Source: Gammaproteobacteria bacterium (GTDB taxonomy: Bacteria; Pseudomonadota; Gammaproteobacteria; GCA-002705445; GCA-002716945). From it: a DNA stretch of 48,936 nt. Below, in pieces: positions 8,220-39,969 of the stretch (positions within the stretch are counted from its first letter, which is position 1; the number at the start of each line of letters is the position of its first letter). Under the pieces are notes generated by a model, which saw only the letters and a program-made list of their open reading frames with translations, was not told where the DNA came from and ran no database searches. The DNA lies in assembly GCA_018670435.1 (NCBI GenBank), contig JABHRC010000010.1:1-48936 (forward strand). Reading direction: 5' to 3'. The position numbers and the translations under genes are program-made.

Positions 8220-9006
8220 AAATTTAAATCTAAGCAAGAAAACATCCATAATTACTGGTGGTGCAGGCCATCTAGGCATGTGTATAGCAGATAAATTATC
8301 GTTATGTGGGTCAAATCTGATACTTATTGATCTCGATGAGAAAAGTCTTAATAAAGCAAAAAAGAAGCTTGAGAAAAAAAATAGGATTAAGGTAAGAACT
8401 TTTCCTCTAGATTTGACAAATAAAAAAGAAAGAATAGATTGTATAAAATTAATAAAGAAAGAATATAAGGTTATAGATATAATGGTCAATTCAATTGGGA
8501 TGGTCGGTACTGATAACATGAAAGGCTGGAATGAAAGTTTTGAAAATCAATGTTATGATGCATGGAATAAAGCTATAGATACAAATTTAACTTCAATTTT
8601 CTTTCTGATACAAGGCATCTATAAAATAATGAAAAAATCAAAGAATGCGTCTATCATAAACGTATCTTCAATATATGGTGTTAATGCTCCTGACTGGGAT
8701 CTTTACAAAGGTACCGCTATAAATAATCCAGCGGCTTACTCAGTTTCGAAAGCTGGTTTAATTTATATGACTAAATGGCTAGCTTCTACATTGGCACCTA
8801 ATATCAGAGTTAATGCAGTATCGCCAGGTGGAATTGAGAGAAGCCAAGAAAAATATTTTATAAAGAAATATAATAAAAAAACTTTATTAAACCGTATGGC
8901 AACTGAATCTGATGTATCGGAGCCAGTGCTCTTTTTAGCTAGCAATATGTCATCATATATAACTGGTCAAAATTTAATAATAGATGGCGGTTGGACTATA
9001 AAATAA
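8203..9006 (+). CDS. ptmA: Short-chain dehydrogenase/reductase, PtmA-like
   Basis: A classical SDR of 267 residues with the cofactor motif TGGAGHLG at about 18-25, the VNSIG stretch, the INVSSIYG serine region and the YSVSK active site. PtmA of Campylobacter is an SDR at the same place in the legionaminic cluster and is thought to act early, in supply of the glucosamine precursor, together with PtmF. The reaction here is not proven. It overlaps legF by 17 bases; its stop overlaps the next ATG by one base. Confidence 0.78.
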   Translation: MNIKIENLNLSKKTSIITGGAGHLGMCIADKLSLCGSNLILIDLDEKSLNKAKKKLEKKNRIKVRTFPLDLTNKKERIDCIKLIKKEYKVIDIMVNSIGMVGTDNMKGWNESFENQCYDAWNKAIDTNLTSIFFLIQGIYKIMKKSKNASIINVSSIYGVNAPDWDLYKGTAINNPAAYSVSKAGLIYMTKWLASTLAPNIRVNAVSPGGIERSQEKYFIKKYNKKTLLNRMATESDVSEPVLFLASNMSSYITGQNLIIDGGWTIK

Positions 9007-10325
9007 TGAATAAGTCAAAAATAATTATAAATTCACCAAATAAGATTGATCTATCAGAATTTAAAAAAGAAAATAGTACTGTGACAAAATACGGTCTTCC
9101 ACCTGAAATAAAATTTTGTAAAAAATGTGTTATTTCTAATCAACGTCCTAATTCAGCTGTTGAATTTAAGCATACAGAAAACTCCAAAAAAAAGACTATT
9201 AATTTTAATGAGGATGGAATATGTGATGCATGTATTGCCACAGAGAAAAAAAATGAAAATATTGATTGGGAAAAAAGAGAAAGTGAACTAATAGAGCTAT
9301 GTAATCAATATAGGAGTAACAATGGCTCTTATGATTGTCTTGTTCCTGGATCTGGTGGTAAAGATAGCTTTTATGCTTCCCATGTCCTTAAGTATAAATA
9401 TAATATGAATCCACTGACCGTAACATGGGCCCCAAATATGTATACACAGTGGGGCTGGGAGAACTTTCAGGCATGGATTCACTCAGGCTTAGATAATTAT
9501 CTTATGACTCCAAATGGGAGAACTCATCGTTTAATGACTAGATTAGCTGTGGAGAAATTATTTCATCCTTTTCAACCTTTTATATTAGGTCAAAAATGTT
9601 TTGCTCCAAAGATGGCAATAAAGTTTGATATCCCTTTAATATTTTATGGGGAACAAGAATCTGAATATGGAACTCCAGTTAATGAGGCTATGTCTTCAAA
9701 AAGAGACTGGACATTTTCTGCTCTTAGCGAAAGAGATGAAATGTTTTTTGGTGGTGTTGCCTATGAATCATTAAAGAATGACTTTGGTTTAACAGATAAT
9801 GATTTATCTATATACGTGCCTGAGGCAATTGGAAATATAAAGAAGACTTCGATAGACTTTAGGTATCTTGGTTACTATTTAAAATGGCATCCTCAATCAA
9901 ATTATTATTATGCTGCGGAGCATAGTGACTTCAAAGCATCTCCAGAAAGAACTTTGGGAACATATAGTAAATATAATAGTATAGATGATAAAATTGATGA
10001 TTTTTTTTACTATACAATGGGAATAAAGTTTGGAATAGGAAGGGCCACAACAGATGCATCTCAAGAAATAAGATCAGGAGACATTAATAGAGAAGAGGGC
10101 GTGCTTTTAGTGAATAAATTTGATCATGAATTCCCCGAACGGTTTTCTAAAGAAATATATAAATACTTAAGTATAAACAAGAAAGAGTTTCCAGTTGCTA
10201 GTAAAGTATTTGAAGAACCTATATTTACTAAAGATTATTTCTTAAGGTTATGTGATAAATTTCGCTCGCCACATATATGGAAATATTTTAATGGTCAGTG
10301 GAAACTTAGAAAACAAATCAAATAA
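9006..10325 (+). CDS. N-acetyl sugar amidotransferase, PseA/WbpG/PtmG family (copy 1)
   Basis: A 439-residue PP-loop ATPase. A zinc-type cysteine pair in FCKKCVISNQRP and a second pair in CDAC frame the N-terminus; the ATP-binding PP-loop is SGGKDS. Members such as PseA, PtmG and WbpG turn an acetamido group of a sugar into an acetamidino group, using ammonia from HisH/HisF partners. It has the expected hisF- and hisH-like genes next to it, and a second paralogue after them. The ATG at 9006 overlaps the ptmA-like stop; a TTG at 8991 is a weaker alternative. The substrate is probably the legionaminic acid (inference). Confidence 0.86.
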   Translation: MNKSKIIINSPNKIDLSEFKKENSTVTKYGLPPEIKFCKKCVISNQRPNSAVEFKHTENSKKKTINFNEDGICDACIATEKKNENIDWEKRESELIELCNQYRSNNGSYDCLVPGSGGKDSFYASHVLKYKYNMNPLTVTWAPNMYTQWGWENFQAWIHSGLDNYLMTPNGRTHRLMTRLAVEKLFHPFQPFILGQKCFAPKMAIKFDIPLIFYGEQESEYGTPVNEAMSSKRDWTFSALSERDEMFFGGVAYESLKNDFGLTDNDLSIYVPEAIGNIKKTSIDFRYLGYYLKWHPQSNYYYAAEHSDFKASPERTLGTYSKYNSIDDKIDDFFYYTMGIKFGIGRATTDASQEIRSGDINREEGVLLVNKFDHEFPERFSKEIYKYLSINKKEFPVASKVFEEPIFTKDYFLRLCDKFRSPHIWKYFNGQWKLRKQIK

Positions 10326-10332
10326 GTATAGA

Positions 10333-11103
10333 ATGGCGAGCAATATTAGATTAATAGCAAGATTAGATATCAAAGGCCCAAATTTGATAAAAGGCATACA
10401 TCTTGAAGGTTTAAGAGTTATGGGTAACCCTAATGAATTTGCAAAAAAATATTATAATGATGGTGTAGATGAAATTATATATATGGATACTGTTGCAAGC
10501 TTATATGGAAGAAATAATTTAAGTGATATTGTTAAAAAAGCAGTGAAAGATGTATATGTTCCTATTACAGTTGGTGGAGGATTACGTTCTATTGATGATG
10601 TCAAATATCTCCTTAGATGCGGTGCAGAGAAAGTTGCAATTAATACCGCTGCAACGAAAGATCCAAAGCTGATAACTGAAGTTTCAAGAAAGTTTGGTTC
10701 CCAATGCATGGTGCTATCAATCGAAGCAAAAAGAAATGGAGATGATTCATGGGAAGTATACACTGAAAATGGTAGACAAAAAACTGGAATGGATGTGCTT
10801 GAATGGGCTAAACAAGGTGAAAGTCTTGAGGCAGGAGAAATCTTATTGACTTCAGTAGATAACGAAGGCACTAAAAAGGGTTTTGATTACGAATTAATAA
10901 AAAAGGTATCTGAATCTGTTTCTATTCCCGTTATTGCAAGTGGTGGAATGGGTTGTCTAAATGATTTGTCTAAAGTTGTAAATGACTCAAGTGCTGATGC
11001 AGTTGCCATGGCTGACATATTGCATTATGACCGTTCAAATATAAAACTGATAAGAGAGCATTGTCAGGAAAATAATATTAATGTCAGAGACTATGAAGCC
11101 TAA
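10333..11103 (+). CDS. hisF: HisF-like cyclase subunit of sugar amidation (LPS HisF)
   Basis: A 256-residue (beta/alpha)8 barrel of the HisF family, starting at the ATG 10333 (RLIARLDIKG). The family's first catalytic aspartate is kept at D12, but the second, in the motif normally written AIDAK, is a glutamate (SIEAKR, E131). No histidine biosynthesis genes are nearby; it lies between two sugar amidotransferases and beside hisH. It therefore most likely serves as an ammonia channel for acetamidino formation, as HisF2 does in Pseudomonas O-antigen synthesis. A start at 10252 would overlap the previous gene by 74 bases and is unlikely. Confidence 0.85.
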   Translation: MASNIRLIARLDIKGPNLIKGIHLEGLRVMGNPNEFAKKYYNDGVDEIIYMDTVASLYGRNNLSDIVKKAVKDVYVPITVGGGLRSIDDVKYLLRCGAEKVAINTAATKDPKLITEVSRKFGSQCMVLSIEAKRNGDDSWEVYTENGRQKTGMDVLEWAKQGESLEAGEILLTSVDNEGTKKGFDYELIKKVSESVSIPVIASGGMGCLNDLSKVVNDSSADAVAMADILHYDRSNIKLIREHCQENNINVRDYEA

Positions 11104-11731
11104 AATAAGTATTGTAGATTATGGTTTATGCAACTTATACAATGTTAGTAATGCTCTAGAACATATAGGTGCAAATATTACGATCATTGATAAGCCTCAT
11201 GATATTGAAAAGGCAAGCCATATAATACTCCCTGGGGTAGGTGCATTTAAAAATGGAATGAGAGGACTAAATTTGAGAGAGTTAGTTCAGCCTTTGAAAG
11301 AACACATCGAAAAAAATAGACCATTTTTAGGAATTTGCTTGGGCATGCAAATGATGCTAAGTAAAAGTTATGAATTTGGAGAAATAGAGGGTTTAGATAT
11401 TATAGATGGGGATGTTGAAAAAATTCCAAAAATAAATTCGAGTAATATTACTCATAAAATTCCACATATCGGATGGAATAAAGTTATCATTAATGAAAAT
11501 GTTAGAAATCATCATCTCCTTACGGGGCAAGATGATAAGTCATCTATGTACTTTGTTCATTCATATAGAGTTAACTGTAATAATAAAGATAATATTATGG
11601 CTACAACTAATTATAATGATGTTAATATAACTGCAATTATCAATAAAAATAATGCGTATGGATGTCAATTTCATCCTGAAAAGAGTGGAAAATACGGCCT
11701 AAATATTTTAAAACAATTTGTTAAATCATAG
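11081..11731 (+). CDS. hisH: HisH-like glutamine amidotransferase subunit
   Basis: A class I glutamine amidotransferase of 216 residues. The oxyanion region LPGVGAF is present, the nucleophile is the cysteine in GICLGMQ, and the His-Glu pair is in FHPEKSG near the C-terminus, so glutaminase activity should be intact. It would release ammonia from glutamine for the HisF-like partner and the sugar amidotransferases at 9006 and 11740. Start at 11081 overlaps hisF by 23 bases; an ATG at 11093 is also possible. Confidence 0.86.
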   Translation: MSETMKPKISIVDYGLCNLYNVSNALEHIGANITIIDKPHDIEKASHIILPGVGAFKNGMRGLNLRELVQPLKEHIEKNRPFLGICLGMQMMLSKSYEFGEIEGLDIIDGDVEKIPKINSSNITHKIPHIGWNKVIINENVRNHHLLTGQDDKSSMYFVHSYRVNCNNKDNIMATTNYNDVNITAIINKNNAYGCQFHPEKSGKYGLNILKQFVKS

Positions 11732-11739
11732 GAGTGATA

Positions 11740-12984
11740 ATGGGTAAAATAATAAAATCATCAGACGATATTCTTGATAAACAGCTAGGTCTTCTTCCAA
11801 AAGAGATCAAGTTTTGCAATAACTGTGTCGTATCAAATCAAAGACCAAGAATAGCATGGGATCAAAAAATTAAAGGTCAATGCTCAGCATGTGATTATGC
11901 ATATGAAAAGGATAATATAATAGATTGGGAAAAAAGAGAGAAAGAGCTGCAAGCGGTATGTGACAAATATAGATCTAAGGATGGTTCATGGGATGTTATT
12001 GTTCCTGGCTCTGGTGGAAAAGATAGTGGCATGGTCACGCATAAATTAAAGCATAAATATGGCATGAATCCTTTAACTGTAACATGGGCCCCATTTCTAT
12101 ATACAGATATTGGCTGGAAAAACTTTACAGCTTTAAAAGATAAAGGCTATGACAATATTCTTATACATCCTGATGGTAAACTACATAGGAAACTTTCTAT
12201 GCTAGCTTTTGACTTACATGGTGATGCATGGGATCCATTCGGCTATGGACAACAATATATGGCTTATCATTTATCAATTAAATTCAATATTCCATTTATC
12301 TTTTTCGGTGAAAATGGAGAAATAGAATATGGTGGATCTCTTAAACAAAAAGATATGGTGGAGGCGCCATGGGAAGACTGCGAAGAAATATTTTATAAAG
12401 GAAGTGGAGTACATAAATTAATTGAAGCTGGACTAAAAAGAAATATTTTTACAAAGGAAGAAATTAAATCTACATCTTTAGATTTTTACCAACCACCAAA
12501 AATGGAAGATTTAAAGCGCGTAGGTAGCAAAGGACATTGGATGTCATATTATGAAAGATGGACCCCTCAGCATAATTATTACTATGCAGTGGAAAACTGT
12601 GGTTTTGAAGCAAATCCAGATAGATCAGAAGGTACATATCAGAAATATGGAAGTATTGATGACAAGCTAGATGGATTCCATTGGTGGATGGCATATATGA
12701 AATTTGGGATTTGTAGAGCAACATATGATGCTGCCCATGAGATAAGAGATCACCATATTAATAGGGAAGAAGGAGTTGCTCTAGTACATAAATATGATGG
12801 AGAATTTCCCATAAAGTATTGGAAAGATTTTTTAGAATATCTAGATATCTCAGAGAAAGAGTTCTGGTATATTGCTGACAAGTATAGAAGCAGACATGTA
12901 TGGACACCAACAGGTGCTAAATTTAGCGGGTATTCGCCTGAAGCTCAATACAAGCTTTGGAAATTAAATGAACAAGTCAAGTAA
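11740..12984 (+). CDS. N-acetyl sugar amidotransferase, WbpG family (copy 2)
   Basis: A 414-residue paralogue of the protein at 9006, with the same cysteine pairs (FCNNCVVSNQRP and CSAC), the PP-loop SGGKDS and the ending typical of the family. GGAG at 11731-11734 is spaced five bases from the ATG at 11740, which decides the start over an in-frame GTG at 11734. The substrate region differs: GENGEIEYGG here against GEQESEYGT in copy 1, so the two copies probably amidate different positions or sugars (inference). Both share a single HisH/HisF pair. Confidence 0.86.
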   Translation: MGKIIKSSDDILDKQLGLLPKEIKFCNNCVVSNQRPRIAWDQKIKGQCSACDYAYEKDNIIDWEKREKELQAVCDKYRSKDGSWDVIVPGSGGKDSGMVTHKLKHKYGMNPLTVTWAPFLYTDIGWKNFTALKDKGYDNILIHPDGKLHRKLSMLAFDLHGDAWDPFGYGQQYMAYHLSIKFNIPFIFFGENGEIEYGGSLKQKDMVEAPWEDCEEIFYKGSGVHKLIEAGLKRNIFTKEEIKSTSLDFYQPPKMEDLKRVGSKGHWMSYYERWTPQHNYYYAVENCGFEANPDRSEGTYQKYGSIDDKLDGFHWWMAYMKFGICRATYDAAHEIRDHHINREEGVALVHKYDGEFPIKYWKDFLEYLDISEKEFWYIADKYRSRHVWTPTGAKFSGYSPEAQYKLWKLNEQVK

Positions 12985-15963: not shown

Positions 15964-16761
15964 ATGAATATATTTGAGCTAATAAAAAAAATTATACAAG
16001 TCAACAAAGGGCAAATTTACAACATAATCTCCACAGAAGCCTTATTAAGGGCGATAGCTTGGTATGTCACACCAATATTTTACTATTTACGTATAACGCC
16101 AAACGTCATTAGTGTTATTGCTTTATTAACTGGAGTTTTGGCATCATTTGTAATAATGATCGGGGGGAAAGATCTTTATCTCTATGGAGTTATGATTTAT
16201 GTTTTATCCATTATATTTGATCATTGTGATGGTAATATAGCACGCTTGAGAAATATGCCTACGTTTTTTGGAAGATTTATGGATGGTCTATTTGATATTA
16301 TCGTACAAGGCTTTATGCAGATTGCTTTGTTATCATTGATTCTTACAGATGTACTACCAAGTATCCAAGAAACATCAACAACTCATATAATGGGTTTTGA
16401 AGTTAATTTAATTCTCATCCTAGGAATAACGTTATTAAGTTTATTTTCGACACCTATGCAACATATGATTCCGGATAGATATGGAGCATATTGTCGTTGG
16501 ATCAATGAAGAGCATAAACTGTCTCTGAGCCCAACACTTAGAACAGATGTTTCTTTTAGATTTGTAGATATCCTTAATGATATCCAATTGATATTCATCA
16601 TCTTAGGAGTTCTTTCAAATCAATTCATATTTATTTATTTCATTATGAATCTAGTATCATCAATTACAATGGTAAGTTTTTATTTTTACTATGCAAAAAA
16701 AAGAATGTCAATTCATGCAAATGATCATAGAACATATTTGAATGAAAAAGATAAGTTATAA
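15964..16761 (+). CDS. CDP-alcohol phosphatidyltransferase family membrane protein
   Basis: A membrane protein of 265 residues with several hydrophobic helices (about 48-85, 110-130, 140-165, 200-235). The complete CDP-alcohol phosphotransferase motif is at 86-111: D86, D89-G90, A93-R94, G103, D107 and D111. Such enzymes join an alcohol and a CDP-activated partner with loss of CMP. The usual phospholipid enzymes sit elsewhere in genomes; here it lies in a glycan operon beside sulfotransferase and kinase-like genes, suggesting a phospho-linked decoration or lipid anchor. The substrates are unknown. Confidence 0.82.
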   Translation: MNIFELIKKIIQVNKGQIYNIISTEALLRAIAWYVTPIFYYLRITPNVISVIALLTGVLASFVIMIGGKDLYLYGVMIYVLSIIFDHCDGNIARLRNMPTFFGRFMDGLFDIIVQGFMQIALLSLILTDVLPSIQETSTTHIMGFEVNLILILGITLLSLFSTPMQHMIPDRYGAYCRWINEEHKLSLSPTLRTDVSFRFVDILNDIQLIFIILGVLSNQFIFIYFIMNLVSSITMVSFYFYYAKKRMSIHANDHRTYLNEKDKL

Positions 16762-16764
16762 ATA

Positions 16765-18060
16765 ATGACTAGCTATAAAACAATATATATTGCAGGAATC
16801 AATAGAAGTGGTGGTTCGCTATTAAGTAGATTATATGACAATCATAGTAGTATATTGAGTTATCCAACAGAGCTAGGCTTTCCCTCTGACAATAGTTTCT
16901 ATGATATAGTTGACTCATATGCTGGAGTTCCACAATCAATCCCTGACTATTTTAAATCTCAAGATCAAGATTTATTTTCATTACTTGATTTACCAAAAAA
17001 ACAGGCAGTATATTCTACACAGTGGGGTAAAGAAAAAAGTGAACCATTAGGAGTCAGAGAAAATTATCTAGAAAAAAACTTTTATGGAAATATAAAAACA
17101 TATTTTGATTATGATATGTTTATTGAAATATTTAATGAAAAGTCTATTCATGCTCAAAATATTAAAGAACTATATGATGCAAGACACTATGCATATTTCA
17201 GTGCCTGGGAGAATGGGAAGTATCTAAAAGATCAATCTCATGTAGTTATGCAAGATAGTGGAGGTATATATCTAACCAATATTGAGAGATATTTTAATGA
17301 GTTTACAGACTCTATTCTTTTATATCCAATTAGAGATATTACAGGCTATGTAGCAACCGAAAAAGTACGATATGCGCGTAGGTTTTATGGATCTAGAAGG
17401 TTTGCGTCACCGCAACTCCCAAACTATTTTGTTAAAAACTATAACTATTATGATATCGAGGAACAGATTAAAGGATGGCTGTGCGCAGTTACACGTGTTA
17501 GATTATTACAGGAAAAATATGGTATCAATGACAGATTCGTTATCTATAACCATTCTGCATTAACTTCTTATCCTGAATTGACAATGAAGAGTTTAATAAA
17601 TAAATCTTCATTAAAATATGAAGAAACCCTAGTTAACCCTACCATCGGCGGAAAAGACTGGCTAGGTAATTCGCATTATGGGCCAACAAAGGGAATCTCA
17701 AACAGTATTAATAAAAACTACAATAAAGTTCTTAGAAGAGATGAGTTGGATATAATTAGCTCATTATCTGGAGAATTATGTAGTCATATAGATAATAAAA
17801 ATACTCCTGTTAGTTTATTAGATATACCAGAAAATCTATTTTATGATTATGAAATTCAAAAAAAATATATTGATGATGAACAAAAGATATCACTATATTA
17901 TGCTTTAACAAATTCAACAAAAAGAAGATATAAAATTACACAAGCTCCCATATATTCTATTTTCGCTATAATATTTTCATTGATTGTCAGATTAGCTCAT
18001 ATCCCTAGAATACTTAAGCTTAGATATTTCAAAGGAAAAGGAAAACAGAATTATACTTAA
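16765..18060 (+). CDS. Sulfotransferase-family protein
   Basis: A 431-residue protein with a P-loop-like phosphosulfate motif at the N-terminus (GINRSGGSLLSRL, about 11-23) followed by HSSILSYPTEL, as in carbohydrate sulfotransferases. A second conserved patch is LYPIRDI, resembling the 3'-phosphate-binding part. A hydrophobic segment near residues 395-415 may attach it to the membrane. An adenylylsulfate-kinase-like gene lies two genes on, so sulfation of a sugar is plausible, yet no ATP sulfurylase is present in the window. Family-level assignment only. Confidence 0.68.
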   Translation: MTSYKTIYIAGINRSGGSLLSRLYDNHSSILSYPTELGFPSDNSFYDIVDSYAGVPQSIPDYFKSQDQDLFSLLDLPKKQAVYSTQWGKEKSEPLGVRENYLEKNFYGNIKTYFDYDMFIEIFNEKSIHAQNIKELYDARHYAYFSAWENGKYLKDQSHVVMQDSGGIYLTNIERYFNEFTDSILLYPIRDITGYVATEKVRYARRFYGSRRFASPQLPNYFVKNYNYYDIEEQIKGWLCAVTRVRLLQEKYGINDRFVIYNHSALTSYPELTMKSLINKSSLKYEETLVNPTIGGKDWLGNSHYGPTKGISNSINKNYNKVLRRDELDIISSLSGELCSHIDNKNTPVSLLDIPENLFYDYEIQKKYIDDEQKISLYYALTNSTKRRYKITQAPIYSIFAIIFSLIVRLAHIPRILKLRYFKGKGKQNYT

Positions 18061-18072
18061 CAAGGAATCATT

Positions 18073-19035
18073 ATGACTAAGCTATTTATAACTTTAGGAC
18101 CATCAACCCTTAAAAAAGATTTTCTAGAATCATTGAAAGCTAAATATGTTAAATTATTAAGAATTAACTTATCACATACAAGTATTGATGATCTACCTAA
18201 AATTGTCAGATATATCAGAAAGTATAGTAAAATTAATATATGTTTTGATACTGAGGGAGCGCAAATTAGAACTTCACGAATAAAGAACAAAACAGTAACG
18301 CTTAAGAAAAATACTTATATTCATATAAATAAAAATAACAAGGACAGTAATAATATTACACTTACACCAGATAGAATATATGAAAAACTAAAGGTTAATG
18401 ATACTCTGTATATAGATTTTAATAGTGCTGAAATTAAAATCATTAGTGAAAATATTAAAACTTATAAATGTAAAGTTATAGAAGGTGGGGTAATTGGTTC
18501 AAATAAAAGTATTTCTGTAAATAGACATATTAATATACCTGCATTCACAAAAAAAGATATGCTAGCAATTAAATTAGCAAAAGAGTTAGATATAAAAAAT
18601 ATTGCGTTATCATTTACATCTAACGCTAAAGACGTCAAGACCCTCAGATCATACTTTGACAAGAAAGTAATAATTACTTCAAAAATAGAATCAAAAAAAG
18701 CTCTTACTAATCTTGGTGAGATATTAAAAGAAGCAGACAATATACTTATTGATAGAGGTGATTTATCAAAAGAAATACCTTTGCCACTGATCCCAAAGAA
18801 GCAAAAAGAAATTATTAAGATAGCGAATAGAAACAAAGTTCCCGTATATGTGGCGACAAATCTTTTAGAGTCCATGGTAACTAAGCAAGAACCCACAAGA
18901 GCAGAAGTCAATGATATATATAATACGTTGATTGATGGAGCAGATGGACTGGTATTAGCTGCTGAAACTGCAATTGGAAAGTATCCTGCCGAATGCATTG
19001 ATATGGTTATAAAAGTATCAAGAACCATTAAATAA
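18073..19035 (+). CDS. Pyruvate-kinase-like protein without C-terminal domain
   Basis: A 320-residue protein matching the catalytic part of pyruvate kinase, which is normally about 470 residues. Visible are RINLSH (30-35), DTEG (59-62), a B-domain-sized insert (about 70-155), SKIE with K204 and E206, RGD (228-230, D230) and PTRAEVND (274-281) with AAETAIGKYPAE. The regulatory C-terminal domain is absent; the stop comes straight after the barrel. AAGGA at 18062-18066 gives a good ribosome site. It is unlikely to be the glycolytic enzyme, given its operon. A phosphotransfer from or to PEP within sugar decoration is a guess. Confidence 0.8.
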   Translation: MTKLFITLGPSTLKKDFLESLKAKYVKLLRINLSHTSIDDLPKIVRYIRKYSKINICFDTEGAQIRTSRIKNKTVTLKKNTYIHINKNNKDSNNITLTPDRIYEKLKVNDTLYIDFNSAEIKIISENIKTYKCKVIEGGVIGSNKSISVNRHINIPAFTKKDMLAIKLAKELDIKNIALSFTSNAKDVKTLRSYFDKKVIITSKIESKKALTNLGEILKEADNILIDRGDLSKEIPLPLIPKKQKEIIKIANRNKVPVYVATNLLESMVTKQEPTRAEVNDIYNTLIDGADGLVLAAETAIGKYPAECIDMVIKVSRTIK

Positions 19036-19036
19036 A

Positions 19037-19579
19037 TTGTCTAAATATAAAGAATCTAAGATCATATGGTTAACTGGCATGTCTGGTGCTGGAAAATCAT
19101 TCTATTCTAAATACCTATATGAGAAATATAAATCATTAAGTAAAAAAATACAAATACTAGACGGCGACACAATACGCGACAAATACGATACCCCACTGGG
19201 TTATTCTAAAGAGGATATATTTAAAAATAATATGTTCATAGCCGATATTTGTGATAAGAATTATAAGAATTATGATGTAACTATTGTTTCTGTCATTTCA
19301 CCTTATGAATCAATCAGAAATAAAATAAAAGGAAAATTTAAAAATAATATTTATTTTATATTTGTAAAAGCAGACATAGAAAGTTTAAAAGCAAGAGATA
19401 CTAAGAAACTATATTTTAAAGCTGATAATAATGAAATAAAGGATCTTATTGGATATTCTAATAGCTCAAAATATGAAAAACCTATAAACCCAGATCTAAT
19501 TCTTAATACTTCAGAATGTAGTAAACCAGATGACAACTATAATATTTTAGATAGTTTTTTCAAGCTTACTAATGAATAA
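19037..19579 (+). CDS. Adenylylsulfate-kinase-like P-loop kinase
   Basis: A 180-residue P-loop kinase with Walker A GMSGAGKS (14-21), LDGDTIRD (41-48) and SVISPYESIR (85-94), the hallmarks of CysC. The conserved arginines that follow the LGYS motif in true CysC are not evident. The start is TTG at 19037, since no ATG or GTG lies between the preceding in-frame stop and the P-loop. In Campylobacter a CysC-like protein of a capsule cluster phosphorylates cytidine diphosphoramidate instead of APS, so the substrate should be left open. Confidence 0.78.
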   Translation: MSKYKESKIIWLTGMSGAGKSFYSKYLYEKYKSLSKKIQILDGDTIRDKYDTPLGYSKEDIFKNNMFIADICDKNYKNYDVTIVSVISPYESIRNKIKGKFKNNIYFIFVKADIESLKARDTKKLYFKADNNEIKDLIGYSNSSKYEKPINPDLILNTSECSKPDDNYNILDSFFKLTNE

Positions 19580-21212
19580 TACTAAACTAATAATCTTATC
19601 AAATTTGAAAGATAGGCCACTAGAAAAAGATATAAACTATCTTACTTTTTCTAAGACGATGTTCTGCAAATATGAGAATAATTATAACATTAAATACTTC
19701 TTTGATATTAGCCCTAACATAAATGAACCTATAGAGCTTGAAAGTCTAGAAAGTAATTTATTTATTGAATCTAAAAAAGAAAGTAATAGATGGTTTGTAT
19801 TGTCATTTAAATTCATATACAAATACCTACTTACGTATAATCAATTCTATAATAGACTAAGGCAATATCTGAATAGTAATGAAAATATAAAATCTTTAGA
19901 GATAAGTAGTAAGATTAGCTTTATACTTAATCTAGTGATAGATAATATATCTCAAGCACATAATATTAAGATAATAAAGAATAATAAAGATTTTGATAAT
20001 TTTAGTTATAGACACTCACAATTTATGGGGAGTGATATCCCAGATCATTTAAATTTAGATAAATATAATATATTTTTATACATTCATGCATTATATTTAC
20101 GATTTACAAATCATAATATATTTATTTTTCCGTCATCATTTATAAGTAAAATGCCATTTAAGGTAAATATATTTCGTATCTCCATATTTACTATATATTC
20201 AAAGATTAAAAGGAAGTTTGGTTTTCAAAAAAATAAGAAATACTTACGGTATATTCCGATAATTGATTTCTCAGAAAAACCTGAGATAAGATATAATTTA
20301 GACAAAAAAATATGGAGTGGCTATAGAAATGATCAGCTTGAGTTAATACAGAACATAATTAATGTCTTCTTTAGTGCATATAAGTATGAATATATTGATA
20401 ATTTAAAGAACAAAGTGACGCTTTATCTAAAGGCAAGCAAGACTAAAAAAGTAATTTTAGATGAAACAATTGACTCATTTAGGAGATTAATATGTCTTAT
20501 ATGTAGAGAAAATTCTATATCAATTGAATTTACACCACATGGCATCATAGACGAAGATTTACAGTTCCCTCTAACCAAGAATCAGAATTACAGTAATAAG
20601 TATATTCCAGATATTTTGACATGGAATTCTGAATCAGCGACATATCTATCAAATAAAGGCCTTAAATGTAGGCCTATATCATATCCACTAGCACTATATC
20701 CTTATAAGCCCGATGATAAGAAAGATATACTAGTTATGTTGAGTTATGGTGACAGAGTAAACTTAAATGCATTTGAAGAGTATATTATAGATATAATTCC
20801 TTTGGCAAAAGATAAAAATTATTCTATTGATTGGAAAATTCATAAAAATATATTTGAAGATTCAAATATTTCAATGAAACAACAAAAAGAAAATATTGAA
20901 AACGAATACAATGTTAACATAAATCTAATACCACATGATATTAATGCCTCTTCTATTTTAAAAAATTATAAAACGATAATTTTTACAACATGGACAACAG
21001 GAATATATGAAGCTGCAATGCTCAACATACCATTCGTTATTTATACAAAGGAAAATGAAACTATAAGAGCATTAGAAAGTATAAGTATACCTGTCGCAGA
21101 AAATATTCATCATTTATATCAATTAATTAAGGACTCTGATGTTAGGTACTTGAATCAAATCAAAGAATCTCTTACTAAAAATCTAAGTCTTAGCAGTTAC
21201 TTAAGTAATTAA
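19572..21212 (+). CDS. Unrecognised protein, possible GT-B glycosyltransferase
   Basis: A 546-residue protein I do not recognise. The C-terminal third looks like the donor-binding half of a GT-B transferase: a PHG loop, DILTWNSES, a WKIHKN segment and TTWTTGIYEAAMLNIPFVIY, with a small Thr/Gly patch and a Glu, similar in style to capsule and CDP-glycerol transferases. The N-terminal half is lysine- and asparagine-rich and has no motif I can name. No signal peptide or obvious membrane helix. As no known nonulosonate transferase is visible in the window, it is a candidate for that role (inference). Confidence 0.6.
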   Translation: MNNTKLIILSNLKDRPLEKDINYLTFSKTMFCKYENNYNIKYFFDISPNINEPIELESLESNLFIESKKESNRWFVLSFKFIYKYLLTYNQFYNRLRQYLNSNENIKSLEISSKISFILNLVIDNISQAHNIKIIKNNKDFDNFSYRHSQFMGSDIPDHLNLDKYNIFLYIHALYLRFTNHNIFIFPSSFISKMPFKVNIFRISIFTIYSKIKRKFGFQKNKKYLRYIPIIDFSEKPEIRYNLDKKIWSGYRNDQLELIQNIINVFFSAYKYEYIDNLKNKVTLYLKASKTKKVILDETIDSFRRLICLICRENSISIEFTPHGIIDEDLQFPLTKNQNYSNKYIPDILTWNSESATYLSNKGLKCRPISYPLALYPYKPDDKKDILVMLSYGDRVNLNAFEEYIIDIIPLAKDKNYSIDWKIHKNIFEDSNISMKQQKENIENEYNVNINLIPHDINASSILKNYKTIIFTTWTTGIYEAAMLNIPFVIYTKENETIRALESISIPVAENIHHLYQLIKDSDVRYLNQIKESLTKNLSLSSYLSN

Positions 21213-24892: not shown

Positions 24893-26243
24893 TAAATATT
24901 TAGTAAACAAAAATGAAAAACTAGAATCTGTTTTAGAGCTAATTGATGCAAATAAGATTGGAGCAGTATTTATAGAAGACAAGGGTGCAGTCATTGGGGT
25001 TGCTACTGATGGTGATATTAGGCGAATTCTATTAAAAGAGAAGAATTTGAATCTTAAGATTAATAAATGCATAAATAAAGATTTTATATTTTTATATGAG
25101 GAAAATGCGAGCAAAGAGAATATTTTAAAACTTCTTGATACTAGAATTCGCATAATCCCAATCCTTAATAAAAAGAAAAAATTAATAACTGTTGTCTCAG
25201 AAAAGAATATAATTTGGAATGAAAAAGAAAAAGTTATCTCTAAAGCCAAATCACCAGTGAGGATAAGTTTTGCTGGAGGTGGAACAGATTTAACAACTTA
25301 TTTTTATAAAGAAACCGGGGTTGTTCTTAATGCAACAATTAATAAATTTACACATGCAGTATTAGAAAAAAGGAATGATAAAAAAATATCAATACATTCT
25401 AATGATTTAAATATAAAACTTAATTTTGATAATATAGGCGACATTAGGTTAAATGGGGAATTAGATCTTATAAAGTCTGTAATAGAAATATTAAAGCCAG
25501 ACTTTGGTTTTGACTTGATGACATATAGTGATGTCCCTCCTGGCTCTGGTCTTGGTGGGTCTGCTGTTCTTTTAAGTGCTATAATTGGTGCATTCAATAA
25601 TTTTAAAGAAAATAAATATAGTGATTATGAAATTGCTGAGCTAGCATTTCATGCTGAACGCGTTGTTATGAATCTTTCTGGAGGCTGGCAAGATCAGTAT
25701 GCTACTGTATTTGGTGGATTTAACTTTATTGAGTTTAAAGATGATGAAAATATTGTTAATCCTTTAAGAATTAGTGATGATATAAAAAATGAATTAGAGG
25801 ATTCTTTGATATTATGTTACACGGGTTTCAACCATGACTCTGGTAAAATCCATAATGATCAAAAAAGTAAGATGAATAATATCAAGCAGAAGAAATATGC
25901 TGAAGTTTCCAAAGATATTGCTCATGAAATGAAATCTAAATTGCTTAAAGGTCAGATGGATAACTTTGGTGAATTATTAGGGAAAGCTTGGAAAACTAAG
26001 AAAAAATTCTCGTCCAAGATAACAAATAAGCTATTAGATGATATATATGATTATGGTATAAAGCATGGGGCTTTAGGTGGAAAACTTCTGGGTGCAGGGT
26101 CTGGCGGATTCTTTCTTTTTTATGTGCCGACATATTCCAAAGTCAAGCTGATGAATGCGTTAACGAAAAAAGGTCTACAGATGGAAACTATTACTTTTGA
26201 TAGTGCTGGTTTACGAAGATGGATTACGAAGAAAAAAATATGA
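24882..26243 (+). CDS. CBS-domain / GHMP sugar kinase fusion, HddA-like
   Basis: A 453-residue fusion. Residues 1-115 form a CBS pair (VATDGDIRRIL), very like the one on the ptmE-like enzyme. Residues about 122-450 are a GHMP kinase with SPVRISFAGGGTD, the ATP loop PPGSGLGGSA and a C-terminal GAGSGGFFLF, matching heptose-7-phosphate kinase HddA. The kinase would make a sugar-1-phosphate for the nucleotidyltransferase before it. Ligand control by the CBS pair is inferred. HddA proteins usually lack such a domain. Confidence 0.83.
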   Translation: MKINKYLVNKNEKLESVLELIDANKIGAVFIEDKGAVIGVATDGDIRRILLKEKNLNLKINKCINKDFIFLYEENASKENILKLLDTRIRIIPILNKKKKLITVVSEKNIIWNEKEKVISKAKSPVRISFAGGGTDLTTYFYKETGVVLNATINKFTHAVLEKRNDKKISIHSNDLNIKLNFDNIGDIRLNGELDLIKSVIEILKPDFGFDLMTYSDVPPGSGLGGSAVLLSAIIGAFNNFKENKYSDYEIAELAFHAERVVMNLSGGWQDQYATVFGGFNFIEFKDDENIVNPLRISDDIKNELEDSLILCYTGFNHDSGKIHNDQKSKMNNIKQKKYAEVSKDIAHEMKSKLLKGQMDNFGELLGKAWKTKKKFSSKITNKLLDDIYDYGIKHGALGGKLLGAGSGGFFLFYVPTYSKVKLMNALTKKGLQMETITFDSAGLRRWITKKKI

Positions 26244-28135
26244 TTATTGATAATTTTAGAATAAATGACCATGGAAAAATATTTATCATTGCTGAAATAG
26301 GTATGAATCATAATGGGTTTTATGATAAAGCTATAGAATTAATAGATATTGCAATTAAAGCAGGAGCTGATTGTGTTAAATTTCAGATGAGATGTCTAGA
26401 AGAACTATATTCTCAAGATGCATTAGATGTCTCCAAAGGTGATCTGTCAACGCAGTATACTATTGGCTTATTAAGAAAGTTTGAATTAAGTTATGATGAA
26501 TATAAGAAATTAGCTAAATACTGTCATGATAATAATATAATCTTCTTGTGTACTCCCTGGGATATAAAAAGTGCTGACTTAATAGAAAAAATTGGCGTGT
26601 CTGCATATAAAGTCGCATCAGCAGATATGACTAACTATGCGTTATTAGATCATCTATGTGAGAAAGGTAAACCATTGATTTTATCTACTGGGATGTCTAA
26701 AAAGTCTGAAATAGACAATGTTGTTAAATATTTAAATAGTAAAAAAAAGAAGGTAAAGTTTGCCTTATTACATTGTAACTCAACATATCCAGCACCATTC
26801 AAAGATATCAATCTAAATTATTTAAAAACAATGTCTGAATATGATATCCCGATTGGATATTCAGGACATGAACGCGGGATAGCTGTGACTTTAGCAGCAG
26901 TAGCTTTAGGAGCTACTATCGTAGAGAGACATATTACACTAGATAGAAAAATGGAAGGACCTGATCATTCAGCAAGTCTAGAAAAAAAAGATTTTGAGTC
27001 ATTAGTAAAAGGAATACGTGAGATCGAAAAAGCATTGGGGAGTAGTAAAGATAGAGTGATTACTCAAGGTGAATTAATCAATAGAGAAAACTTGTCGAAA
27101 AGTATTTATGCAAACATTGATATACGTAAGAATGATGTTTTTGAAGAAAGTATGTTTGTTTTTAAAAGTCCAGGACAAGGACTTCAACCAAGTGAGTTAG
27201 TAAAACTACTTGGCAAGAAAGCAATTACTGAAATTAAAAAAGGTAAACCTATTTTCAAATCTCATTACAAGAACATAGTTAACGCTAAAAAAGATTATAA
27301 ATTTAAAAGAAAATGGGCATTACCTGTAAGATATCATGATATAAATAAACTCTTAGAGACTACTGCACCAGACTTAGTAGAATTTCATATGAGTTTTAAT
27401 GATTTAGATGAATCACCTGATGATTTTTTAAATAGTAAATACAATTGTGGTTTTTTGGTACATGCACCAGAATTATTTGAAGACGATCATCTTTTAGATC
27501 TATGTACACATGATAGAAGTTATAGGGAACAGTCGGTTATACATATGCAAAAATTAATCAATGTTACAATTAATCTAAAAAAATATTTTCCCACTACTGT
27601 CAAACCTCTCATAATTGTTAATTGCGGTGGTTTCTCTAAAGACAGTTTTATAGAGGATAGCTTGAAAGATGATTACTATGAAAATTTAATAAAGTCTTTG
27701 AGTAGTTTGGATTCAGATGGTGTTGAAATTATTCCACAAACAATGGCTCCTTATCCATGGCATTTTGGAGGACAAAGATATCAGAACTTGTTCATGAATC
27801 CAAAGGAAATTATTGATTTTAATAAAAAAACAGGTATTAGAATGTGTCATGATATATCGCACTCTTTTCTAGCATGTAATGAATATAAATGGGATCATTT
27901 AGAGTATACAAAATTATTAGCTCCATTTACTGCTCATTATCATATTTCTGATGGAAGTGGCGTGGATGGTGAAGGATTGCAAATAGGAGAGGGTGATATA
28001 AATTTTAGAGAGTTATTACCTATTATCAATGAATATTCAAAAGATATTTCTTTTATACCCGAGGTATGGCAAGGACATACAAATAATGGAGAAGGTTTCT
28101 GGATTAGTTTAGATAAGTTAGAAGGGAAACTATAA
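26240..28135 (+). CDS. NeuB-family synthase fused to SAF and a xylose-isomerase-like TIM barrel
   Basis: A three-part protein of 631 residues. Residues about 1-275 are a NeuB-type barrel (IIAEIGMNHNG, TPWDIKSAD, YSGHERG, ERHITLDR, GPDHSASL). An SAF domain covers about 280-345. The C-terminal 260 residues form a second barrel of the xylose-isomerase/AP-endonuclease-2 type with likely metal ligands in EIIPQTMAPYPW, CHDISHS, HYHISDGSG and FIPEVWQG. The first part joins PEP to an N-acylmannosamine-like sugar; the second could be an epimerase or isomerase supplying it. Start at ATG 26240 overlaps the kinase stop (ATGA); ATG 26219 is an alternative. Confidence 0.85.
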   Translation: MIIDNFRINDHGKIFIIAEIGMNHNGFYDKAIELIDIAIKAGADCVKFQMRCLEELYSQDALDVSKGDLSTQYTIGLLRKFELSYDEYKKLAKYCHDNNIIFLCTPWDIKSADLIEKIGVSAYKVASADMTNYALLDHLCEKGKPLILSTGMSKKSEIDNVVKYLNSKKKKVKFALLHCNSTYPAPFKDINLNYLKTMSEYDIPIGYSGHERGIAVTLAAVALGATIVERHITLDRKMEGPDHSASLEKKDFESLVKGIREIEKALGSSKDRVITQGELINRENLSKSIYANIDIRKNDVFEESMFVFKSPGQGLQPSELVKLLGKKAITEIKKGKPIFKSHYKNIVNAKKDYKFKRKWALPVRYHDINKLLETTAPDLVEFHMSFNDLDESPDDFLNSKYNCGFLVHAPELFEDDHLLDLCTHDRSYREQSVIHMQKLINVTINLKKYFPTTVKPLIIVNCGGFSKDSFIEDSLKDDYYENLIKSLSSLDSDGVEIIPQTMAPYPWHFGGQRYQNLFMNPKEIIDFNKKTGIRMCHDISHSFLACNEYKWDHLEYTKLLAPFTAHYHISDGSGVDGEGLQIGEGDINFRELLPIINEYSKDISFIPEVWQGHTNNGEGFWISLDKLEGKL

Positions 28136-37842: not shown

Positions 37843-38547
37843 ATGTCTGATTTTTCTGAAATACTTATTAAATCCATAAAGATTATTCTAGACCTTCAAG
37901 GTAACTATATTGATATAATTATCATTTCACTCCATGTTTCTTTAACTGCAATATTGATATCTAGTATTATTTGTATACCCTTGGCAACTATAATTACTAT
38001 TAATAATTTTTACTTGAAAAACGTATTAATGATATTTATAAACTCATTATTAGCGTTGCCACCCGTGGTAGTAGGACTAATAATATACATATTACTTTCC
38101 AGATTTGGAATATTTGGAGAATATAATCTTTTATATACAATTTCAGCGATGATAATTGCTCAAGTAATTTTAATATCACCAATTCTAATTAGTTTAACAA
38201 AAGAAACGATGGATGATTGTTATAAAAAGTATAAAGATTATCTAGTATCTGTTCATTCTACAGGATATAGAAAATTAATTACATTAATATGGGAATCTAA
38301 AATAAATCTATTTATTCATATATTAGTTGCACTTGGTCGAGCATTATCAGAAGTGGGAGCAATTTTAATTGTAGGGGGTAATATTGAAAATGTGACAAGA
38401 ACCATGACTACTGGTATAGTTCTGGAGACATCTAAAGGGGAGCTTTCTATTGCTTTAAGTCTAGGATTAACATTACTTTTAATTTCATTATTTATAAACA
38501 TAATTCTTTATATGATAAAAAAAAGGATCACAATAAATTATGCCTAA
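37843..38547 (+). CDS. tupB: Tungstate ABC transporter, permease
   Basis: A 234-residue inner-membrane protein with about five hydrophobic helices and the binding-protein-dependent permease loop (GRALSEVGAILIVGGN). The end of the TagF-like gene and this ATG are directly adjacent. With the ATPase and a TupA-type binding protein following, it forms a tungstate importer rather than a molybdate one. Confidence 0.87.
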   Translation: MSDFSEILIKSIKIILDLQGNYIDIIIISLHVSLTAILISSIICIPLATIITINNFYLKNVLMIFINSLLALPPVVVGLIIYILLSRFGIFGEYNLLYTISAMIIAQVILISPILISLTKETMDDCYKKYKDYLVSVHSTGYRKLITLIWESKINLFIHILVALGRALSEVGAILIVGGNIENVTRTMTTGIVLETSKGELSIALSLGLTLLLISLFINIILYMIKKRITINYA

Positions 38548-39160
38548 TACTATTAGTTTAAAAAATATTTCATTTAAAAGTAATAATAAAATAATACTCA
38601 ATAAGATATCTTTAACAATCAGTACAAATAAAATTACAGTCATTACAGGTCATAACGGAGCTGGGAAAACTTCTTTATTAAAAATTATGGGTAATATTAT
38701 TGTTCCAACTCATGGAAGTGTTACATATGGAGATATAACTGATCTCAATAAAACCGCATTTTCTTTTCAAGAACCTGTGTTTCTTAATCGAACAGTGGCA
38801 TCTAATCTTGAGCATGCACTTATATGTTATAATGGTTATTACACTCAAAAATATAAATCATTAATACAAGGTATATTATCAGAATTTAATATTATGAGAC
38901 TTTCAAACATGATTGCTAGCAAGCTATCAACTGGTGAAAAAAAAATAATTTCCTATATAAGATGTATTATTTTAAATCCTAAGATACTTTTCTTAGACGA
39001 GCCATATGCTCATCTTGATCAGAAATATGTAGATCTTATATCCAATCATATAAAAAGTATATCTGATAAAATCAATATATTCATGGTCACTCACTCAAAC
39101 AATAACCTTGATGATCTTCCATGCAATATTATTAAAATGCAACAAGGAAATGTAGAGTGA
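38540..39160 (+). CDS. tupC: Tungstate ABC transporter, ATP-binding protein
   Basis: A 206-residue ABC ATPase: Walker A GHNGAGKT (37-44), a Q-loop in FQEPVF, the signature LSTGE near 128 and Walker B LFLDEPYAHLD. The ATG overlaps tupB by eight bases. The domain is short, without the C-terminal regulatory part found in some molybdate ATPases. Confidence 0.87.
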   Translation: MPNTISLKNISFKSNNKIILNKISLTISTNKITVITGHNGAGKTSLLKIMGNIIVPTHGSVTYGDITDLNKTAFSFQEPVFLNRTVASNLEHALICYNGYYTQKYKSLIQGILSEFNIMRLSNMIASKLSTGEKKIISYIRCIILNPKILFLDEPYAHLDQKYVDLISNHIKSISDKINIFMVTHSNNNLDDLPCNIIKMQQGNVE

Positions 39161-39969
39161 AAAAAATCTTTTTATTCTTATTTTTAATTATTAATGTTAA
39201 TTCTGTTTATGCATCAGATAATAATATAGTCAAACTTCTTAGCACTACCTCAACTCGTGACTCTGGCTTATATGGTTATATACTTCCTATATTTGAAAAT
39301 GAATTTAATATAAAAGTTTATGTTATAGCAACTGGAACTGGCCAGGCGCTTAAAAATGCACAGAATTGCAATGGTGATTTATTGATTACACATGCCACTG
39401 AATTAGAAAATGAGTTTGTTAAAAATGGGTTTGGTATATCCAGGCACAACCTTATGTATAATGATTTTATATTAGTAGGACCCAAGCATCATTCTAACAA
39501 TATTAAAAAGTCTAAAAATATTATTGAAGCATTCAATTTAATTTCAGACAATAAAGAAAAGTTTATTTCTCGTGGTGATAATAGTGGTACTAATATTTCT
39601 GAACTAAATATTTGGAATAAAACTAATGTTGATATCCAAAAATATAGTGGCGATTGGTATCTAGAAACAGGGCAGGGCATGGGAGCAACATTAAATATTG
39701 CAATCGCAACTGATTCTTTTGTATATACTGATAGATCAACTTGGCTAAAATTTAATAATAAACAGGAGCATGTCGTTGTCTATGAAAATGACCCAATGAT
39801 GTTTAATCAATATGGCGTAGTGCAAATTAATCCAAAACATTGTAATATGACTAATTACAATTATTCTAATATTTTTTTTAAATGGATAACCTCAAAAAAA
39901 GGACAAGAGTTAATAAGAAGCTATAAACTTAATGGAAAATCATTATTTATACCAAACTTCAGTGAATAA
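39157..39969 (+). CDS. tupA: Tungstate-binding periplasmic protein
   Basis: A 270-residue secreted protein. A signal peptide (about 1-20, cleavage after VYA) leads to TTSTRDSGLYGYILP and ATGTGQAL, the TupA oxyanion-binding motifs, then ITHATELE. The start codon is GTG at 39157, overlapping the tupC stop, with AAGGA upstream. It captures tungstate in the periplasm. Tungsten enzymes were not seen in the window. Confidence 0.88.
   Translation: MKKIFLFLFLIINVNSVYASDNNIVKLLSTTSTRDSGLYGYILPIFENEFNIKVYVIATGTGQALKNAQNCNGDLLITHATELENEFVKNGFGISRHNLMYNDFILVGPKHHSNNIKKSKNIIEAFNLISDNKEKFISRGDNSGTNISELNIWNKTNVDIQKYSGDWYLETGQGMGATLNIAIATDSFVYTDRSTWLKFNNKQEHVVVYENDPMMFNQYGVVQINPKHCNMTNYNYSNIFFKWITSKKGQELIRSYKLNGKSLFIPNFSE

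Follow-up and report, generated by a model that had tools for sequence, protein, structure and literature searches.

Why should an operon for surface glycans carry what looks like a pyruvate kinase (PK) without its regulatory domain? We analysed a window of 48,936 nucleotides (the whole stretch of gammaproteobacterial DNA, contig JABHRC010000010.1), in which the open reading frame at 18073–19035 on the forward strand encodes 320 amino acids from an ATG start in an undamaged frame. The PF00224 barrel covers the protein from profile position 4 to 328 of 328 (218 bits, E 1.9e-64, against a cut-off of 30 bits), no second Pfam domain is present, and the alignment shows the frame ending with the barrel. 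The protein is an intact PK barrel with its B domain, ending where the C-terminal domain should begin. The original prediction had described such a core, with the catalytic residues kept, a good ribosome site and a stop about 150 residues early, and these points held. R30, N32, K204, E206, D230 and the RAEVND motif (276–281) are all present and align with PK catalytic residues; an AAGGA ribosome-binding-like site lies at 18062–18066 (+), about 7 nt upstream of the ATG; and the full-length PK of the same genome, at 478 aa, is about 158 residues longer in the alignment.

That full-length PK, which the original prediction had proposed to look for, lies on contig C35 of the window's genome (G000; 0.97 Mb in 41 contigs, 84% complete). 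It scores 324 bits in a frame of about 479 codons and shares 35% identity with the short protein over the barrel. The short protein itself scores under every NCBIfam PK cut-off (TIGR01064, 262 versus 306 bits; PRK05826, 272 versus 432; PRK06739, 175 versus 564). Since the curated models fail and the C-terminal domain is missing, we would not classify it as a pyruvate kinase, though it may work like one. We refer to it as SAPK, for sulfate-activation-associated PK-like protein, and annotate it from PF00224, its signature residues, its clade and purifying selection. Another weak PK match in the same genome, on contig C6 (L031:1425–2258), is a 277-residue PK-like barrel with neither B nor C domain and without the catalytic Arg/Asn/Lys/Asp set; it looks like a PK pseudoenzyme, and weak matches of comparable length turn up in further genomes of the family. 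We dropped it as a candidate part of the SAPK system for its missing B domain and catalytic residues.

SAPK belongs to a tight co-directional run, with 12 nt separating it from the preceding gene and 1 nt from the following one. The following gene (19037–19579, +) encodes an APS kinase-like protein of 180 amino acids with a TTG start (PF01583, 116 bits; TIGR00455, 128 bits, slightly under the cut-off of 138.7), which is the sole APS-kinase match in the genome. Next to it, a 546-amino-acid protein (19572–21212, +) without a Pfam match is a putative GT-B glycosyltransferase by its AlphaFold model (pLDDT 71), its position after the APS kinase in genus members and Foldseek matches mainly to GT-B glycosyltransferases and UDP-GlcNAc 2-epimerases (best E 1.3e-4). 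Upstream lie a CDP-alcohol phosphatidyltransferase (15964–16761, +; PF01066, 55.7 bits), clustered with SAPK in all five carriers of the genus, and a 431-amino-acid protein (16765–18060, +) with an N-terminal P-loop-like AGINRSGGSLL. The latter has no confident Pfam match, and its orthologue in G001 weakly matches Sulfotransfer_3. Its AlphaFold model is of low confidence (pLDDT 58); the top 14 Foldseek matches in the PDB (E up to 0.001) are all PAPS-type sulfotransferases, the best being 4gbm (E 1.4e-5, prob 1.00). The operon's PAPS sulfotransferase is therefore a candidate by fold match only, from a low-confidence model. The remaining window is a surface-glycan locus with a NeuB-type synthase, amidotransferases and sugar nucleotide enzymes.

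We then compared the operon across the genus. Four of the six other genomes carry SAPK orthologues of 319–326 amino acids (62–73% identity), and the remaining two have an ordinary PK only. Within the genus dN/dS is about 0.11 where synonymous sites are unsaturated. All five carriers share the same gene order, namely CDP-alcohol phosphatidyltransferase, 431-amino-acid protein, SAPK, APS kinase-like protein directly downstream and 546-amino-acid protein (in G003 this last gene is cut by the contig end). APS kinase tracks SAPK, occurring in 5/5 genomes with SAPK versus 0/2 without; the two genomes lacking both are 90% and 99% complete. ATP sulfurylase is present in all seven genomes and absent from the window operon. 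In the window's genome sat adjoins aprB and aprA on contig G000:C17, and APS is therefore an intermediate of that pathway, so that a source of APS for a PAPS cassette is found outside the operon.

Relatives outside the genus show what else SAPK is kept with. The best plasmid matches, on megaplasmids of Sinorhizobium chiapasense and Ensifer adhaerens, are 44–45% identical to SAPK, versus at most 34% for ordinary PKs. The rhizobial SAPK forms the N-terminal part of a protein of 726–736 amino acids whose remainder is a complete ATP sulfurylase (PUA_2 and ATP-sulfurylase domains), and the next gene encodes an APS kinase. With a short-PK profile we searched 398 genomes from across the phylum, 369 from the window's own class and 385, 48 and 78 from three other classes, and found six further members; the class of 78 genomes gave zero matches. 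Three of the six have both a PK-ATP sulfurylase fusion and a neighbour of interest for sulfation or sulfate activation: G163 (APS kinase, adjoining a TPR-sulfotransferase), G953 (APS kinase) and G574 (a sulfotransferase, together with an exchanger akin to that of the rhizobia). The sulfotransferases of G163 and G574 are Pfam matches. G939 has the fusion within a NeuB-containing glycan locus, G194 a stand-alone SAPK followed by a separate ATP sulfurylase, and G857 a stand-alone SAPK with an APS kinase and no glycan genes. G1078, at the listing threshold, was excluded for its ordinary PK residues. The profile search of contigs returned a single match, L004, which is the same contig as in G005, and no SAPK member was found on the viral contigs searched. 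Near the fusion, a CPA2-type sodium/proton exchanger (42% identical) occurs both in rhizobia (L033:16815–18071) and in a gammaproteobacterium (L057:5856–7055).

Each of the 13 sequences of the SAPK clade is joined to ATP sulfurylase, by fusion or as a neighbouring gene, or adjoins APS kinase, or both. Counting the genus as one lineage and the rhizobia as another, the linkage to sulfate activation holds in 8/8 SAPK lineages of Pseudomonadota versus 0/17 ordinary PK loci (examined to ~1.5 kb), a split whose chance is ~1e-6 by simple arithmetic, several of the 17 being near relatives. The profile was built on PK sequence alone, so the neighbours were not built into the search. We show that SAPK is intact and conserved, stands apart from the housekeeping PK and, through a shared operon or a gene fusion, is associated in every case with ATP sulfurylase and/or APS kinase; it is very probably part of sulfate (or sulfate-like) activation. 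The expected glycan context needs narrowing accordingly: the window does contain a surface-glycan locus, yet what accompanies SAPK throughout is sulfate activation and not glycan synthesis generally. Homologues without the C-terminal domain, which the original prediction had proposed to seek together with their neighbours, do exist and are linked to sulfate activation, but not always to glycan genes, as G857 shows. A short contig of the glycan locus in G003 (G003:C38; L049:1–2418) also carries an ATP-sulfurylase-like gene, a very divergent PK-like gene (438 aa) and an APS-kinase-like gene in a row. This is apparently a separate instance of the association, in an assembly with 5% reported contamination from which the trio may derive.

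In a maximum-likelihood tree the 13 members group together (support 100/100) on a long branch, separate from housekeeping PK. The fusions form one subgroup (support 100/99), in which ATP sulfurylase occupies the place of the C-terminal domain, consistent with a single PK-ATP sulfurylase fusion event. Absence of the C-terminal domain is not a loss peculiar to the window operon, because the whole subfamily is without it. Its residue signature is divided between what is kept and what is changed. R30, N32, S34, H35, D59, R66, K204, E206, D230 and T262 retain the PK state, and among them the catalytic residues and metal ligands R30, N32, S34, D59, K204, E206, D230 and T262 are invariant in 13/13, as in ordinary PKs. 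Some 11 substitutions are fixed across the clade, in states absent from a table of 17 ordinary PKs: T36, E61, A63, Q64, N144, D227, S232, N263 and A296 are common to all 13 members, F116 to all save an alignment gap in G574, and position 151 is R or K. By rabbit numbering, as we assign it, the changes include K114E, P116A, E117Q, D177F, A292D, Q328N and S361A. We take these sites to be the nucleotide/acceptor and proton-relay side of the enzyme, and the retained residues to be presumably its PEP, Mg2+, K+ and phosphate ligands. Acceptor-side PK residues (A292, Q328, S361, D/N177, K or E117 and others, same numbering) are replaced in 13/13, and true PK activity of SAPK should therefore not be assumed.

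The conserved length, the selection and the invariant catalytic residues rule out a remnant or frameshifted PK. The view that the gene encodes a functional specialised protein is borne out by equal-length orthologues in four of six genus-mates, strong purifying selection, catalytic residues invariant in 13/13 and the separate full-length PK. That SAPK is just a truncated or duplicated housekeeping enzyme, an ordinary second pyruvate kinase with incidental neighbours, would fit the PF00224 match over the full barrel and the 35% identity to the genome's own PK, but is very improbable against a separate long-branch clade (100/100) with its own signature, the 8/8 versus 0/17 linkage and scores under every NCBIfam PK cut-off.

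The partner enzymes carry changes of their own. Among the linked ATP sulfurylases, QTRN has become H-S/G/T-RN in five cases; the fusion of G953 has intact HTRN and GRDH motifs. In G163 and G574 the active site is visibly decayed, QTRN, HxxH and GRDH being lost from the fused ATP sulfurylase domains at L038:8463–10619 and L057:7365–9524, and the PK part is intact in both, so PK-like activity is under stronger constraint than the fused ATP sulfurylase. The APS kinases linked to SAPK keep their P-loop and DGD motifs and vary from E. coli CysC in the APS-contacting segment, most of all in the rhizobial enzyme. With partner enzymes altered in this way, we caution against assuming exactly which reactions the cassette carries out. 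In G001 and G003 the SAPK module adjoins a PRK05849-family kinase fusion, a gamma-glutamyl-CDP-amidate hydrolase-like protein and a nucleotidyltransferase. These phosphoramidate-like genes lie next to the module at L026:2925–7142 and L028:4779–8972, and the cytidylyltransferase is fused to the PRK05849-type kinase. The corresponding interval of G000, G002 and G005, identified by synteny, contains no glutamine kinase, phosphoglutamine cytidylyltransferase or gamma-glutamyl-CDP-amidate hydrolase.

What SAPK does within sulfate activation is a more tentative matter. It probably consumes PEP to power or feed the sulfation of surface sugars. Judged from its sequence relationships, it may be a PEP-dependent phosphotransferase of a distinct pyruvate-kinase subfamily, serving as a dedicated accessory of sulfate activation, a description in which we place slightly less than even confidence. 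SAPK would bind PEP, Mg2+ and K+ as PK does and would transfer the phosphoryl group of PEP to ADP as APS kinase releases it, so that ATP and pyruvate form in place. ADP would thereby be removed, APS kinase (and, in the fusions, ATP sulfurylase) would be resupplied with ATP, and the unfavourable sequence from sulfate through APS to PAPS would be pulled forward. A sulfotransferase, which adjoins SAPK in several cases, would then use PAPS for sulfation of a surface glycan, the predicted product. The sat-aprM-aprBA sulfur pathway could supply APS in the window's organism, and this may explain the absence of a dedicated ATP sulfurylase from the operon. In one in vitro system PAPS synthesis needed PK/PEP regeneration, without which PAPS was practically missing (PMC9885120); eukaryotic fusions of APS kinase, ATP sulfurylase and pyrophosphatase are believed to pull this pathway forward (PMC4220642).

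Regeneration of ATP from the ADP made by APS kinase is the simplest reading and our working proposal, held at a little under an equal chance of being right. The fixed acceptor-side substitutions suggest that ADP may not be the acceptor, and a second ATP regenerator is of no obvious use where a full-length PK is at work and ATP stands at millimolar levels. Where the motifs of the fused ATP sulfurylase are lost, in G163 and G574, fuelling that domain cannot be the role of SAPK.

The same substitutions, invariant in 13/13 beside untouched PEP-side residues, point to the main rival, possible though rather unlikely, in which SAPK uses PEP but phosphorylates another acceptor of the same route, for instance a nucleotide resembling APS or PAP, or else a small molecule. 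From such a small molecule the ATP-sulfurylase-like and APS-kinase-like partners would then make a 3'-phosphorylated, nucleotide-activated donor distinct from PAPS, in the way that Cj1415–Cj1418 handle phosphoramidate in Campylobacter jejuni. The H-S/G/T-RN motif of the partner ATP sulfurylases and the departures of the APS kinases from CysC in the APS-binding segment, largest in rhizobia, agree with this, as does the resemblance of the module genes in G001 and G003 to the phosphoramidate pathway (PMC11800397). Against it, sulfotransferases of ordinary type stand beside SAPK in G163 and G574 and point to PAPS, and the window operon and several others have no phosphoramidate-type genes. SAPK also keeps H35, N32, R66 and K145, which we take to be the equivalents of PK's contacts with the ADP phosphates. 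A phosphoramidate pathway as the shared function was rejected, its genes being limited to G001 and G003 with none in the window, and was kept as a rival only; an earlier idea taken from the CDP-alcohol transferase neighbour, phosphonate synthesis in place of PEP mutase, was dropped after the ATP sulfurylase fusions were found. More generally, it is doubtful, if conceivable, that SAPK and its ATP-sulfurylase-like and APS-kinase-like partners build a nucleotide-activated donor by an undescribed route around a PEP-using kinase with a non-ADP acceptor. No less doubtfully, such a route might be PEP-driven activation of sulfate, or activation of a non-sulfate group, for decoration of bacterial surface glycans.

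Improbable, in our estimate, is a regulatory or scaffold role, with the SAPK domain acting as a PEP-binding sensor of carbon or energy state that gates APS kinase or ATP sulfurylase without turnover. The residue equivalent to S361 is A in 13/13, the fused ATP sulfurylase domains are decayed in G163 and G574, the decayed PK-like barrel of the same genome shows that the fold can lose catalysis, and in fungi a catalytically altered APS-kinase-like domain regulates ATP sulfurylase (PMC4220642). Sensing alone, however, does not require the catalytic Lys, both metal ligands, the Arg and the K+ ligands that are invariant in 13/13, and SAPK exists also as a stand-alone protein.

Known systems resemble SAPK in part. 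It shares with pyruvate kinase (EC 2.7.1.40; PF00224 plus the C-terminal PK domain; TIGR01064) the barrel and B domain, the PEP, Mg2+ and K+ ligands and the catalytic Lys and Thr, but differs in lacking the C-terminal regulatory domain, in ~11 invariant acceptor-side substitutions, in scoring under the TIGR01064 cut-off, in its linkage to sulfate activation and in occurring in a genome that has its own PK. NCBIfam NF005234 (PRK06739), a 352-position 'pyruvate kinase' model too short for the C-terminal domain, has about the length of a PK without that domain, but at 175 bits versus a cut-off of 564 SAPK is not of the same family. PAPS synthases, bifunctional ATP sulfurylase/APS kinases and the diatom and oomycete pyrophosphatase fusions likewise join sulfate-activation enzymes, by fusion or adjacency, to a further enzyme that is believed to draw the reaction onward. 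Here, by contrast, the additional module is PK-like, uses PEP and is no pyrophosphatase; it precedes ATP sulfurylase in the fusion, and APS kinase mostly has a gene of its own. In the CDP-phosphoramidate pathway of C. jejuni (Cj1415–Cj1418) an APS-kinase-like enzyme makes a 3'-phosphorylated nucleotide donor for capsule decoration, and similar genes adjoin the SAPK module in G001 and G003, but the four required enzymes include no PK-like protein (PMC11800397) and the window has no other genes of the pathway. In the open-access literature we found neither a description of the SAPK subfamily nor a case of PK being fused to, or sharing a gene cluster with, ATP sulfurylase or APS kinase; in that literature, a PK subfamily kept next to or fused to PAPS-making enzymes was previously unremarked.

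PK is a textbook glycolytic enzyme; in this branch the regulatory domain is gone, the acceptor side has been altered, and the protein has become tied to sulfate activation across several lineages of proteobacteria. If SAPK regenerates ATP on the spot, nature uses the biochemists' own trick for making PAPS; if it has another acceptor, it would be an unrecognised step toward activated sulfate or a related donor. Either way, the label 'pyruvate kinase' on SAPK in genomes is probably mis-assigned.

The glycan locus of the window has further unusual arrangements. At 8991–12984 a single HisF/HisH pair is flanked by two different WbuX-type N-acetyl sugar amidotransferases, which suggests two amidination reactions fed by one ammonia-channel pair. 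A NeuB-type sialic acid synthase at 26219–28135 is fused to a xylose-isomerase-like TIM barrel (638 aa). The locus ends with an ABC transporter (37843–39969), by eye of the tungstate/molybdate type, with a permease, an ATPase and a periplasmic TTSTRDSG protein.
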